Assembly: GCA_900315545.1 (NCBI GenBank)
Contig: OMZM01000007.1
Coordinates: 1 to 64,000, forward strand
Direction of reading: 5' to 3'
DNA from: an uncultured Prevotella sp.
Lineage (GTDB): Bacteria; Bacteroidota; Bacteroidia; Bacteroidales; Bacteroidaceae
Length of the DNA: 64,000 nt
Within the stretch, counting starts at the first letter, position 1, and the number at the start of each line of letters is the position of its first letter. The translations under genes were made by a program, and so were the position numbers. Shown here one piece after another: positions 21,683 to 56,395 of this stretch. The notes under the pieces were generated by a model. It saw only the letters and a program-made list of their open reading frames with translations. It made no database searches and was not told the DNA's origin.

Positions 21683-22015
21683 GTATCAATAAGCCATGCA
21701 TCATTGGTACGGGATTTCTCCCCATACTGTTTGCAAAAGTACAAAGAATTTATGAAACGCCATTTGCTTATAATATTTTTTTTACGAAATATTTTTATTT
21801 CCAAACGCAGACTGCTCTCTATTTCGACTTGTACTGTGAGAAAAAAGACTAATCAATTTTTGCCCGTTTACTGTCGTGAGAATGTCGACTAAAGTCGTTT
21901 CTGAAATAAAAGGGGCAAAATATGCCCGAAATTCGCAAGTGTCTGTAATTGTTTGATTGTCAGTTTGTTGTCGCGAAACGTTGGCTTTTTGTGCAGGAAA
22001 GATAAGTGTTAAAAA

Positions 22016-22147
22016 TGTCAAAGAGTGTGTTTGAGATTGTCAAAGAGTGTGTTTGAGGAGGTAAAACACTATGTTTAGGGGTGTCGGGCATAGTGCCTGA
22101 TAGGGCAAAATAGACGAAATAGGTGCCTCAAAGGTACTCTTTGACAT
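22016..22147 (+). repeat. 22-bp palindrome array of E1
   Basis: Registers start at 22016, 22038, 22060, 22082, 22104 and 22126. Units 1 and 2 read TGTCAAAGAGTGTGTTTGA, unit 3 has AAACActaTGTTT, unit 4 TCGGGCAtagTGCCTGA, unit 5 is degenerate, unit 6 TCAAAGgtactCTTTGA. Arms change sequence but mostly remain complementary. Confidence 0.8.
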
Positions 22148-22279
22148 TTTTAACACTTATCGACGGTACTTAATTTAACATATCTTTGCACTTTCGGAGG
22201 CTGTTCCGATTCTATTTGAACGATTTTTCCCTGTCAAAATTTTTCATACTTTTTCGACTCGAAGAAAATTTTTGTTCAC

Positions 22280-22296
22280 TTTGGCACAGTTTTTGT
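22280..22296 (+). promoter_or_regulatory. Sigma-54-like -24/-12 box at the end of E1
   Basis: TTTGGCACAGTTTTTGT: GG and the second G are 12 bp apart as in sigma-54 promoters, but the -12 element ends GT instead of GC. The first G lies 155 bp from the start of the last palindrome core, the same as in the other three elements. Confidence 0.4.
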
Positions 22297-22435
22297 AGTG
22301 ATGTCGCTTGCGGCAGCTGTTATTCCCGTGTGTAGCCCTCAAAAGTGGGTGATGTGTTGGCATAGATTGTCAGTCGTTATTGCCGAAAACATAAAAATGA
22401 CTGACATTTTGTGTGTTTTTTCAAAAATAATACAG

Positions 22436-22452
22436 TTTGGCACACATTTTGT
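22436..22452 (+). promoter_or_regulatory. Second sigma-54-like box, or overlapping primary promoter, before groES
   Basis: TTTGGCACACATTTTGT, a near copy of the box at 22280-22296, 44 bp before the groES ATG. It overlaps an alternative primary-sigma reading: TTTG (22408-22411), 19 bp, then TACAGTTTG, which has one extra base relative to the -7 consensus. The sequence cannot decide between the two. Confidence 0.4.
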
Positions 22453-22496
22453 AGAATGAATAGATAGAACAATAACTTAATAAAAACATAAACAGT

Positions 22497-22766
22497 ATGA
22501 AAATTCAACCATTAGCAGACCGCGTGCTGATAACACCGGCAGCGGCAGAAGAAACAGTAGGCGGAATTATTATTCCAGACACAGCGAAGGAAAAGCCTCT
22601 TCGTGGAAAAGTAATAGCAGTTGGTAACGGAACAAAAGACGAGGAAATGGTATTGAAGAAGGGCGACGAAGTGCTCTATGGCAAGTATGCCGGCACGGAG
22701 TTGGAACTCGACGGTGAGAAATACCTCATGATGCGTCAGAGTGATGTGCTCGCTATTGTAAAATAA
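22497..22766 (+). CDS. groS: Co-chaperonin GroES
   Basis: 89-residue lid of the GroEL folding chamber, heptameric and cytoplasmic. N-terminal [13 protein letters not shown], the mobile loop [16 protein letters not shown] that docks on GroEL, and [14 protein letters not shown] are all standard. It is followed by groL 50 bp downstream with no terminator between them. The leader of more than 650 bp back to the E1 element, with no CIRCE operator seen, is unusual for a heat-shock operon. Confidence 0.97.
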
Positions 22767-22816
22767 ATTATCTTTTATACATTCATAAAATCTAACAAGG
22801 TAAATAAGTAAAGATT

Positions 22817-54638: not shown

Positions 54639-54764
54639 AGTCTGTACGTTTTTAGTTTCAGTAAATATTGTTTCGCAAAGATATAAAAAACTTTTCTTTA
54701 TGTCAGTTATTAATTGAAAAAGTTGTACTTTTGCGACAGTAAATAAATCAATAAAACAAAAGTT

Positions 54765-55163
54765 ATGAGCAGATTGCTATTCATCCTGTTATTTGTTGCG
54801 GTAGTGATTGTAGCGTGGGCTTGCAAGTCCGGCACAAAGAGTTCGGTCTACAAGACAGTAGGCGTCGACGAGTTCGAGCGTATCATTTCGGACACAGTCG
54901 GTGTTGTTGTCCTCGACGCCAGGACACAGTCCGAATACGACGAGGGACACATAGCCCATGCCGTGCTTATAGATGTCAAGACCGACTCGTTCATGATGGC
55001 TGCCCGCGACCTGTTGCCTAAGGACAAGACTATAGCCGTCTACTGCCGCAGTGGGCGTCGCAGCGCTATGGCTGCCGACATGCTGACCGACGAAGGCTAT
55101 ACGGTTGTCAACCTCGACGGCGGCATCATGGCATGGATTCAGTCTGGCAAGAGCGTGGAGTAG
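54765..55163 (+). CDS. Rhodanese-domain lipoprotein
   Basis: 132 residues. The signal peptide ends in VAWACKSG, a plausible lipobox with Cys20, so it is probably anchored in the periplasm or outer membrane. One rhodanese domain follows, with VVLDARTQSEYDEGHIAHAVLIDV and the active-site loop CRSGRRS holding the catalytic Cys. Single-domain rhodaneses move sulfane sulfur or act in thiol stress. A TACTTTTG -7 box is at 54726-54733. Confidence 0.88.
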   Translation: MSRLLFILLFVAVVIVAWACKSGTKSSVYKTVGVDEFERIISDTVGVVVLDARTQSEYDEGHIAHAVLIDVKTDSFMMAARDLLPKDKTIAVYCRSGRRSAMAADMLTDEGYTVVNLDGGIMAWIQSGKSVE

Positions 55164-55167
55164 GTCG

Positions 55168-55731
55168 CTATTTCAGTTTCTTGCCGTCGGCAAACGCATT
55201 GCCTACAACCTTTCCGAGCTCAATATAAGTATTGTCGATAGGGTTGAAGGTAATGATGTTCATTTTCTTAACGTCGGGTTTGCCCTCGTTGTCGAGATAC
55301 TTTTCATCGCACAGAATGTTTACTATTTCGGCAACGAGATAGTAACCCGTTTCCGACTCGTCAATCTTCTGCTTCACGCGACACTCAAAAGTCATCGGAA
55401 AGTCCTTGTAGACAGGTGCGTTGACGTTGGCAGACTTCTCCCAAGTCCATCCCGTCTTGCTCATTTTCTCTGTATCGTTTTTCCCGCTCACGATACCCAC
55501 GAAGTCGGCAGCCACCAGTGTCTCGGTCGTTGCAAAGGCAACGGTAAACTCGTTGTTCACGGCGAGATTGTCGGTCGTGGCGTGCGAGCCGAGCGAAATC
55601 ATAATCTCGTGTACGTCCCAAGTGCCGCCCCATGCTGCATTCATGGCATTCGGCTTGCCCTCGCGGTCGTATGTACCTATTATTAATACAGGCTGTGGAA
55701 GCATCCACGCTTTCGGCTTAAAACTCTTCAT
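55168..55731 (-). CDS. Flavin reductase family protein (FMN-binding)
   Basis: 187 residues of the split-barrel flavin reductase family. N-terminal KPKAWMLPQPVLIIGTYDREGKPNAMNAAWGG gives the FMN-binding strand and loop; NEFTVAFATTETLVAADFVGIVSG and WTWEKSANVNAPVYKDFPMTFECRV follow. It may reduce flavin for another enzyme or act in oxygen defence beside sodB. Element E4 points at its start. A TATCTTCG box at 55785-55792, with no good -33, is the only primary promoter signal. Confidence 0.88.
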   Translation of the reverse strand: MKSFKPKAWMLPQPVLIIGTYDREGKPNAMNAAWGGTWDVHEIMISLGSHATTDNLAVNNEFTVAFATTETLVAADFVGIVSGKNDTEKMSKTGWTWEKSANVNAPVYKDFPMTFECRVKQKIDESETGYYLVAEIVNILCDEKYLDNEGKPDVKKMNIITFNPIDNTYIELGKVVGNAFADGKKLK

Positions 55732-55907
55732 ATTCGTATGGCTTTTATTGTTAATACTAATAGTTGTTTGTTCACTTTCCGATGCGAAGATACGAAAAAA
55801 TACTCAAAATTCATAATTTAATGACAGTATTTTTCATATTATGTGCCTGTCGCAAGCAAATTTTATTGTTTTATTTTCAAGCGTCTAACCTCATTTTTCG
55901 ACTTCCT

Positions 55908-55924
55908 GCAAAAAGTGTGCCAAA
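55908..55924 (-). promoter_or_regulatory. Sigma-54-type -24/-12 box of E4
   Basis: TTTGGCACACTTTTTGC on the minus strand, 155 bp from the start of the last core. The 11-mer GCACACTTTTT recurs immediately upstream on the same strand. Confidence 0.5.
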
Positions 55925-56056
55925 AAGTGTGCATTTTCTCTCTTGATTATAAATTTATGAAAACTTTTGACAGAGAAAAAACGTTCAAATAGAATCAGAA
56001 CAGCCTCTGAAACTGCAAATTTCTGTTAAATTAAAGACCGAATGTAACTGTTAAAA

Positions 56057-56188
56057 TTGTCAAAGAGTATCTTTGACGTGCCTATTTATTAAAAATGGGC
56101 TTGCCAGACATAGAGCCCGACACTATCAAACACTATGTCTGACATCCTCAAACAGTGTGTTTGACAATGTCAAACATACTCTTTGACA
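56057..56188 (-). repeat. 22-bp palindrome array of E4
   Basis: Sense units start at 56188, 56166, 56144, 56122, 56100 and 56078. Unit 1 TGTCAAAGAGTATGTTTGACA, unit 2 TCAAACAcacTGTTTGA, unit 3 TCAGACAtagTGTTTGA, unit 4 TCGGGCTCTATGTCTGG, unit 6 TCAAAGatactCTTTGA. In units 3 and 4 the non-Watson-Crick arm positions are G.T in the sense strand. Confidence 0.8.
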
Positions 56189-56395
56189 TTTTTAACATAT
56201 ACATTTTATGCACACAAATGCTATGTTTATGACTAATAAGCTGATTATCAGATAGTTGCAGGCGCTTGCGAATTACGGGCGATTTTTGCCCCTTTGATTT
56301 CCGAAACGACTTTCGCGGGCATTCTCGTGATAGTAAAAATGCGCATAATGATTAAACTTTTCTTGCCGAATAGTTGTCGTGTTGTTGAAATTTTG

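Follow-up and report, generated by a model that had tools for sequence, protein, structure and literature searches.

A non-coding block of about 460 bp forms a dispersed family of well over a hundred copies in a Prevotella-group genome, with a common order of parts: module A, an array of 7-3-7 palindromes flanked by inverted arms, module D, and a sigma-54 -24/-12 box. Our preferred reading, advanced tentatively, is that of an old, lineage-specific family of about 140 such elements that spread with local exclusion and whose copies may be kept as assembly sites for dimeric DNA-binding proteins and the sigma-54 polymerase. Readings as simple gene promoters or as standard MITEs are disfavored.

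Four Copies in the Analyzed Window

The window (the whole analyzed stretch of 64,000 nucleotides) contains four copies, at the coordinates and with the order of parts given in the initial annotation:

21842..22303, + strand: copy 1, long class, upstream of groES-groEL
22007..22155, + strand: copy 1 array of 22-bp palindromic units with its inverted arms
22201..22218, + strand: copy 1 module D (CTGTTCCGATTCTATTTG), which precedes the box by 79 bp
22280..22295, + strand: copy 1 sigma-54 box TTTGGCACAGTTTTTG
22436..22452, + strand: separate sigma-54 type site near groES (TTTGGCACACATTTTGT), outside the element
29657..30118, - strand: copy 2, long class, flanked by genes for a galactokinase and an FtsX/MacB-type permease
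29665..29680, - strand: copy 2 sigma-54 box TTTGGCACACTTTTTG
29805..29952, - strand: copy 2 arms and palindrome array
46946..47385, + strand: copy 3, of the minor class that is 22 bp shorter, upstream of a gene for a sugar transferase
47100..47116, + strand: copy 3 palindrome TTACAAG-CAT-CTTGTAA, 7-3-7 geometry kept, half-site different
47362..47377, + strand: copy 3 sigma-54 box TTTGGCACACTTTTTG
55901..56362, - strand: copy 4, of the long class, with a flavin-reductase-like gene downstream
56049..56196, - strand: copy 4 arms (inverted repeat, 27/29 positions by inspection) and palindrome array
55909..55924, - strand: copy 4 sigma-54 box TTTGGCACACTTTTTG

Copies 1 and 2 both measure 411 bp from TGTCG in module A to GG in the end box, and copy 3 measures 389 bp, as described before. 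Copy 4 does not carry that exact TGTCG; from GAGAATG to TTTGG it measures 402 bp, as do copies 1 and 2, against 380 bp for copy 3, and the fixed geometry thus holds with copy 4 included. The 22-bp palindrome array, proposed for all four copies, is present in copies 1, 2, and 4, and copy 3, a member of the minor class, has other palindromes instead. Pairwise identity among the four is 55-84%.

Family Size, Fixed Geometry and Divergence

From the genome (92% complete, 56 contigs, several contig ends falling inside elements) 128 box-bearing copies were extracted, 12 of them cut by contig ends and 116 uncut. The estimate of about 140 copies in 2.29 Mb is half of the 278 arm matches at ≤3 mismatches (control pattern, 9); for exact arm matches, the first 100 listed were considered. 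Copy 2 as a BLAST query gave 101 matches in its own genome (40 candidates scored). Element boundaries were set from conservation profiles, and the conserved block stops at about +24, just short of what we take to be the expected sigma-54 start.

The anticipated occurrence of many further copies with a 411-bp geometry, or one 22 bp shorter, was borne out: of the 116 uncut copies, 102 have module A at 412-414 bp from the box (the long class) and nine have it at 391 bp, 22 bp less (the minor class). A lone copy at 402 bp has a poor module A match, with 13/35 mismatches. The right arm is found at 142-144 bp in 114/116 uncut copies, and of the 107 copies in which both arms were scored, 105 have an arm-to-arm distance of 129-130 bp. 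The palindrome array has a 10.9-bp periodic component; taken over its full length, the element shows no peak above the shuffled maximum, either at 12.4 bp, the largest, or at 10.6 bp. Among the rare length variants, 22 and 11 bp agree with whole helical turns, and 14, 35, and 40 bp do not clearly do so.

The divergence of long-class copies from the consensus is about 13-26% of positions, and most of them carry 0-2 short indels. Pairwise and covariation figures refer to 66 of 119 full-flank sites, those with >70% ungapped identity to the consensus, a set that leaves out minor-class and indel-bearing copies; within it, about a quarter of positions differ between two copies and the highest identity is 88% (91% among the nine minor-class copies). 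That the distance from module A to the box is fixed although long-class copies differ to this extent indicates that element length is constrained.

The Sigma-54 Box and Its Partners

The terminal TTTGGCACACTTTTTGC, left unnamed in the initial annotation, is by its sequence a sigma-54 type promoter box, fitting the -24/-12 consensus of this sigma factor. The genome contains 129 exact matches to TTTGGCACNNTTTTTG (TGGCAC-N5-TTGC), an occurrence far beyond chance given none for the reversed pattern (0-1 with one mismatch allowed). Among the 66 copies, the box is followed by C in 78% and by T in 21%. A box-independent set, found by the arms on contigs C2 to C20, comprises 55 elements among the matches listed, three of which are cut by contig ends. 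In the 52 uncut ones among these matches the box is perfect in 40, carries one mismatch in 3 and is gone in 9, where the neutral expectation for a perfect box is about 5-6% (0.81-0.82 to the 14th power). As about a sixth of the arm-found copies (9/52) do without it, the box is dispensable at some sites.

RpoN with its three domains is encoded in the genome, together with one clear, apparently single, enhancer-binding protein (EBP) with a Fis-type HTH. The array is not supported as a common EBP site: its palindrome was not seen within 330 bp upstream of six other sigma-54 sites in the same genome (two of them element fragments, and excepting the element that neighbors the groES site) or of five sites in relatives.

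Placement Relative to Genes

Box-bearing copies are intergenic, and their orientation is random with respect to genes and to each other. Orientation and distance were derived from codon-score gene calls, not annotation, with a left-edge overlap of ≤40 bp tolerated, and 28 of the 128 elements were left out (neighbor missing or ≥700 bp away). For the 100 elements with both neighbors <700 bp away, the contexts are (-,+) 33, (+,+) 25, (+,-) 22, and (-,-) 20. With 25 against 20 in codirectional contexts and 22 elements between convergent genes, there is no preference for the box to point at a gene that it could drive. Gene distances are mirror-symmetric on the two sides of the element; on either side the median is 174-177 bp to a gene start and 112-118 bp to a gene stop. 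An orientation along the leading strand was rejected (local GC skew along the element direction -0.0018, s.e. 0.0040).

Both the spread over contexts and the equal distances argue against a dedicated sigma-54 promoter-enhancer cassette that would have spread like a transposon-borne module and placed the downstream gene under stress (heat-shock-type) control, a reading that we consider unlikely. It would agree with the perfect -24/-12 box, with the presence of RpoN and an EBP, and with the orientation of the downstream gene, which is co-oriented at 75 of 133 sites (5 box-only sites included), opposed at 48, and not called at 10. Elements precede groES-groEL and dnaK in their own genome (dnaK identified by eye), and in relatives the sigma-54 box lies 35-56 bp before htpG or groES at 5 of the 16 sites read (gene names by eye). 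Sigma-54 dependence of grpE and groES has been described for Bacteroides thetaiotaomicron (PMC12316311).

Spacing, Exclusion and Exchange

The 128 box-bearing elements define 83 within-contig intervals, with C26:101015 entered at an approximate place (its sequence-derived place gives the same minimum and mean). The minimum spacing is 6,262 bp: none of the 83 intervals is shorter, versus a mean of 29.8 in 5,000 simulations. Mean spacing is 15.7 kb and its CV 0.562, versus 0.560 for random insertion with a 6.2-kb exclusion; such spacing is what random insertion would produce if each copy kept others out of a surrounding zone. This zone surrounds each box-bearing copy, save for one degenerate box-less copy (C19:1524) that sits 4.1 kb from its neighbor. 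The upper tail is exponential, with gaps up to 51 kb, some of which hold box-less copies. Random spacing and orientation had been named in the initial annotation as arguing against a family; orientation is indeed random, while genomic spacing is non-random and the internal geometry rigid.

Nearby copies have patchy tracts in common: pairs <15 kb apart are 81% alike versus 74% between contigs, the likeness lying in patches, and pairs 15-30 kb apart have no excess (0.749 versus 0.741 on different contigs).

An old MITE-like non-autonomous transposon with target immunity, whose copies would now be inert and whose box would be the promoter of the parent's transposase gene, appears doubtful to us. 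The family is short, non-coding, intergenic, orientation-blind and high in copy number, its spacing fits immunity, and a few fragments and degenerate copies are present. However, no terminal inverted repeats were seen when the end profiles of the 66 copies were compared by eye, and no target site duplication was found in these copies (words of length 3-10; the best z among several thousand combinations was 3.2) by a scan that may miss old duplications, as these could have decayed. Moreover, no near-identical recent pair was seen, the highest identities being the 88% and 91% given above, almost no indels have accumulated despite the divergence from the consensus, and a box that is either perfect, one mismatch away or gone is not a pattern that inert copies would show.

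The minimum spacing could also be set by function rather than insertion history, if the elements were chromosome-organizing nucleoprotein knots that bound or tether domains about every 15 kb. Orientation independence, intergenic location, an array with a 22-bp period and sequence exchange between nearby copies are all compatible with this, and the mean spacing is of the order of supercoil domains, of which E. coli is described to have 400-500 (PMC3820752). Even tiling would not, however, give an exponential upper tail with such long gaps, and we regard this explanation as quite improbable. A structured RNA or single-stranded DNA element is disfavored and most improbable, since the far better folding of one strand of copy 4 than of shuffles (as DNA, z -5.9) is due to the palindromes, the 90 column pairs with the strongest covariation (mutual information, 66 copies) form no helix and are for the most part word swaps over a short range, complementary ones such as -70/-62 standing alone, and an Rfam scan of the window gives one tRNA only.

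Occurrence in Other Genomes and Comparison With Known Systems

Exact TTTGGCACNNTTTTTG occurs 0-2 times in each of 59 relatives, in contrast to the count in the element's own genome, and 0-3 times per genome in 397 further-sampled genus members, with the exception of G421, which has 13; copy 2 as a BLAST query gave no match in G421. No exact match to module D turned up among 84,980 GTDB genomes, a set from which the own genome is possibly left out. The proposal that related Prevotella genomes would share the element was thus not supported by the module D search or by the few boxes. A second species, Prevotella sp. MB2.90, has an unrelated element in which a palindrome array is likewise combined with this box, which suggests a recurring design. 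Copy 2 had no match in phages or plasmids, and an origin from either was rejected. A short arm pattern is matched by seven viral contigs, matches that may be due to chance.

The statement that no element with this layout had been described stands for the literature found; the end box itself belongs to a known promoter class. Like sigma-54 promoters with upstream activator sites, the element has a consensus end box, upstream palindromic arrays, and RpoN and an EBP in the same genome. In contrast to ordinary sigma-54 promoters, it repeats about 440 bp of upstream sequence of nearly fixed length genome-wide, its orientation is unrelated to genes, and its array was not seen at the ordinary sites inspected. 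REP/BIME/REPIN and ERIC-type repeats are also palindromic, intergenic, present in many copies and found in either orientation, but they are much shorter, with neither a promoter box nor a fixed 400-bp geometry. Target immunity is a property of Mu, Tn7, and the Tn3 family, all of which carry a transposase, Mu and Tn7 also an ATPase partner. Around a Mu copy, insertion is reduced over a range of about 5-7 kb, which resembles the 6.2 kb here; insertions climb sharply at about 5 kb and reach bulk level at about 7 kb, and immunity is graded and absolute only within about 1.5 kb (PMC7350765). The gap around our element is sharper. The BrickBuilt MITE of Porphyromonas gingivalis, from the same bacterial order, is dispersed and non-coding with 23-nt internal tandem units; it differs in having 19 copies, IS-like terminal inverted repeats and direct repeats, and the main text of that paper does not contain the word sigma (PMC4596501). 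Its terminal inverted repeat, GAGACCTTTGCA, is not enriched here (three window matches at two mismatches versus 5.8 expected, none in an element).

Proposed Model and Implications

In the lineage-specific family that we tentatively favor, copies would have multiplied by a process akin to transposition, under local target immunity, and then stayed in place, nearby copies swapping tracts by gene conversion. The palindromes may bind a dimeric protein, lined along one face of the DNA at about two helical turns per unit. RpoN polymerase would dock at the end box and, once the EBP is active, could fire outward into whatever adjoins. Selection might then keep the assembled complex itself and not one product, the weakest step of the model. 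The number of exact boxes in contrast to relatives, fixed geometry, few indels, the end of the conserved block at about +24, perfect boxes, RpoN and EBP, random orientation, spacing, the comparable range of Mu immunity and patchy likeness count in its favor. Against it count the lack of a terminal inverted repeat or target duplication, the copies without a box, the array palindrome not being seen at the other sigma-54 sites inspected, the box-less copy inside the exclusion zone, a gap sharper than graded Mu immunity, and distant same-contig pairs being no more alike than those between contigs.

A bolder idea, which we offer as speculation of low probability, is a chromosome-wide system in which sigma-54 polymerase, ordinarily a stress polymerase for specific genes, sits at some 140 orientation-blind nucleoprotein knots, each holding an array of dimer sites at fixed phase. 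The knots would organize or insulate the chromosome or poise outward stress transcription, and different species of the genus, the present one and Prevotella sp. MB2.90, would have assembled such systems out of sequences with no relation to one another.

For a bacterial repeat family, constant length, a box mostly intact amid divergence, and a 6-kb exclusion are unusual. A sigma-54 regulon motif scan would list more than 100 unconventional 'promoters' in such a genome. The family would represent either a readable footprint of transposition immunity or a working layer of chromosome organization or stress response built on sigma-54 polymerase.

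Organization of the element

The four-copy observation of the initial annotation is real, but the family is larger than reported there. The copies in the window are as follows:

21842..22303 (+), copy 1
29657..30118 (-), copy 2
46946..47385 (+), copy 3, of a minor class that is 22 bp shorter and carries other palindromes
55901..56362 (-), copy 4

They are 55% to 84% identical to one another. The spacing claimed from TGTCG in module A to GG in the end box is exact in copies 1 and 2 (411 bp) and copy 3 (389 bp); in copy 4 TGTCG is altered, yet the geometry holds, GAGAATG-to-TTTGG measuring 402 bp there and in copies 1 and 2 alike. 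The open-licence literature yielded no described element with such a layout, as the annotators had supposed.

The window and 126 further stretches of this genome gave 133 boxes. Five are not whole elements (one before grpE and four more), and two of the latter four box-only sites, L067 and L068, resemble 3' fragments of the element. Contig ends truncate 12 of the remaining 128 elements. In the other 116, the start of module A lies 412-414 bp upstream of the box in 102 and 391 bp in nine, with single outliers at 448, 427, 402 and 373 bp and one element in which module A was not found; module D lies 78-80 bp upstream of the box in 110 and the right arm 142-144 bp upstream in 114. Conservation profiles delimit a block that starts near -438 and ends near +24, counted from the box; both flanks are at background. 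Long-class copies, those of the usual geometry, match their consensus at ~74-87% of positions, mostly with only 0-2 short indel events, and on inspection invariant words are separated by spacers of fixed length, into which the variable positions fall.

A degenerate hexamer array, AACGGGAACGATAACCTTAAC, lies directly right of the box at 11 of the 133 sites (L085, L114, L115, L150, L154, L156, L157, L167, L177, L186 and L067); at L170 it lies just outside the left end of the element on the opposite strand (about 1324-1348). The array could represent either a variable tail of the element or a satellite in its own right.

Spacing and age of the copies

None of the 83 within-contig intervals is below 6,262 bp, whereas 5,000 simulations of uniform placement gave 29.8 such intervals on average and at least 15 in every run. 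At 0.562, the coefficient of variation is close to that expected for random sequential insertion when 6.2 kb around each copy is excluded (0.560, 95% 0.466-0.673), and an exponential fits the intervals minus the minimum (KS p 0.26). Minor-class copies, which are part of this set, respect the same minimum; including the known box-less elements of contigs C2 to C20 adds one 4.1-kb interval, caused by a degenerate copy. Phage Mu cis-immunity in vivo is described as graded, with no insertion out to about 1.5 kb, a steep increase near 5 kb and the bulk level reached near 7 kb (PMC7350765). The element may have spread by a process with comparable immunity. Neither a target duplication nor a terminal inverted repeat was found in 66 copies.

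The copies appear old. Mean pairwise identity among 66 long-class copies is 74%, with 88% for the closest pair, and the closest pair within the nine minor-class copies is 91% identical. Pairs less than 15 kb apart average 81% (n=17) against 74% on different contigs, the former value being reached in 0 of 5,000 permutations; at 15-30 kb the mean is 75%. This likeness is patchy: L156 and L157 are identical at 287 of the 300 rightmost positions and only at background leftward, and L138 and L139 share 288 of the 325 leftmost positions (246 expected), with the right 150 at background (111; 105 expected). Such patches in near neighbors have the look of gene conversion among copies that no longer move.

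Probable maintenance of the end box

Searching the genome for the arms with up to three mismatches gave 278 matches against 9 for the control, corresponding to about 140 elements. Among the arm matches listed, 100 exact arms on contigs C2 to C20 group into 56 clusters, one being a stray arm beside an element, which leaves 55 elements, three of them cut by contig ends. A stray arm at C17:146622 lies roughly 170-190 bp to the right of a whole element's end. In the 52 uncut elements the box is perfect in 40, has one mismatch in three and is absent from nine. Eight of these nine have 5-7 mismatches at the box position, the level of random flanks, and the ninth, L215, is itself degenerate. Boxes are thus either present, with at most one mismatch, or lost altogether. 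About 5-6% would be perfect at neutral divergence. It is chiefly on these grounds that we regard intact boxes as probably maintained individually.

Sigma-54 machinery and neighboring genes

The end box TTTGGCACACTTTTTGC, with GG and GC spaced ten bases, fits the sigma-54 -24/-12 consensus. Within the 2,288,422 bases (56 contigs) of this genome, TTTGGCACNNTTTTTG occurs 129 times with zero mismatches and its reversed control 0 times; 59 relatives have 0-2 each, and only 12 have any. With RS replacing NN, the counts over 399 genus genomes are 127 here, 13 in the relative G421 and 0-3 in each of the remaining 397. For the looser pattern TTGGCACNNNNNTTGCW the counts are 98 in this genome, 17 in G421, 13 in G187, 10 in G075 and fewer in others. 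The genome encodes one full RpoN carrying three sigma-54 domains, with a second match at the cut-off. There is one clear enhancer-binding protein, the only one of four PF00158 matches to reach 218 bits (the rest score 24-38 bits); it has an activation domain and a Fis-type HTH, and the domain search reported no receiver domain in it.

In 5 of 16 relatives' sites read, htpG or groES follows the box at a distance of 35-56 bp (gene names assigned by eye), consistent with the sigma-54 dependence of groES and grpE described for Bacteroides thetaiotaomicron (PMC12316311). In the window, two boxes of sigma-54 type precede groES (22280-22452 spans both), one belonging to the element and the other near the gene, as if the element was added upstream of a pre-existing sigma-54 promoter.

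Called genes overlap only 2 of the 133 boxes, both box-only sites (left-edge overlap of up to 40 bp tolerated). Of the 100 elements (among 128) with both neighbors within 700 bp, 33 lie between divergent genes, 25 between genes pointing the same way as the element, 22 between convergent genes and 20 between genes pointing the opposite way. Of 83 pairs of neighboring elements, 40 share one orientation. On both sides of the element the median distance is 174-177 bp to gene starts and 112-118 bp to gene stops. These balanced contexts and distances indicate that the element ignores transcription direction, which is evidence against a simple promoter role. The downstream gene is nevertheless co-oriented at 75 versus 48 over all 133 sites, an excess that leaves room for some genes being driven by elements.

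Palindrome array and inverted arms

An inverted repeat, TGTTAAAATTGTCAAAGAG ... CTCTTTGACAATTTTAACA, forms the core, with an arm-to-arm distance of 129-130 bp in 105 of 107 copies scored for both arms. Between the arms, 22-bp units carry, by inspection, the palindrome TCAAACA-nnn-TGTTTGA. In nine copies, including window copy 3, TTACAAG-CAT-CTTGTAA replaces it with the 7-3-7 geometry unchanged, and modules A, D and the box are retained. Helix-like covariation was not seen among 66 long-class copies. The arrays may be read as sites for dimeric proteins of two specificities.

In one palindrome's spacer (long-class columns -233 to -231), 47 of 66 copies have C-n-C and 18 have G-n-G; the box-less copy L209 has GTG there, the reverse complement of CAC. 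It is as if template switching flipped single units.

A second family in the genus

No exact match to module D was present among 84,980 GTDB genomes, from which its own genome may be left out, and plasmid and phage searches with copy 2 were without match. G421, of the same genus and taken to be Prevotella sp. isolate MB2.90, has 13 boxes, and all ten of those read lie in another dispersed element, to which copy 2 has no BLAST match. Upstream of the box, inspection revealed palindromes ATGACTG-CC-CAGTCAT at 23-bp spacing, a pattern that matched no record set other than that of MB2.90. Two interior copies are 89% identical over 675 bp in an ungapped alignment, with a third on another contig; unlike in the present element, the conserved block extends about 160 bp past the box. 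Against 399 genus genomes this element matches at length only in G421, and in the genome of the window it matches two short segments at the box, 26-32 bp long. Many of its ~675-bp copies (L190-L199, L219-L222) lie at contig ends, so that the assembly hides their true number. Elsewhere, G010, G187, G024 and G329 carry TTGGCACTATCTTTGCA or a similar word in tandem at 66-73 bp spacing.

Thus two unrelated families in one genus couple a palindrome array to a sigma-54 box. Dispersal with exclusion, together with maintenance of the box and geometry, is well supported by the sequences, and the biological purpose of the element is inferred. We favor the view that this is an old, exclusion-spaced dispersed family, each copy of which would now be maintained as a site where an array protein and the sigma-54 polymerase dock.
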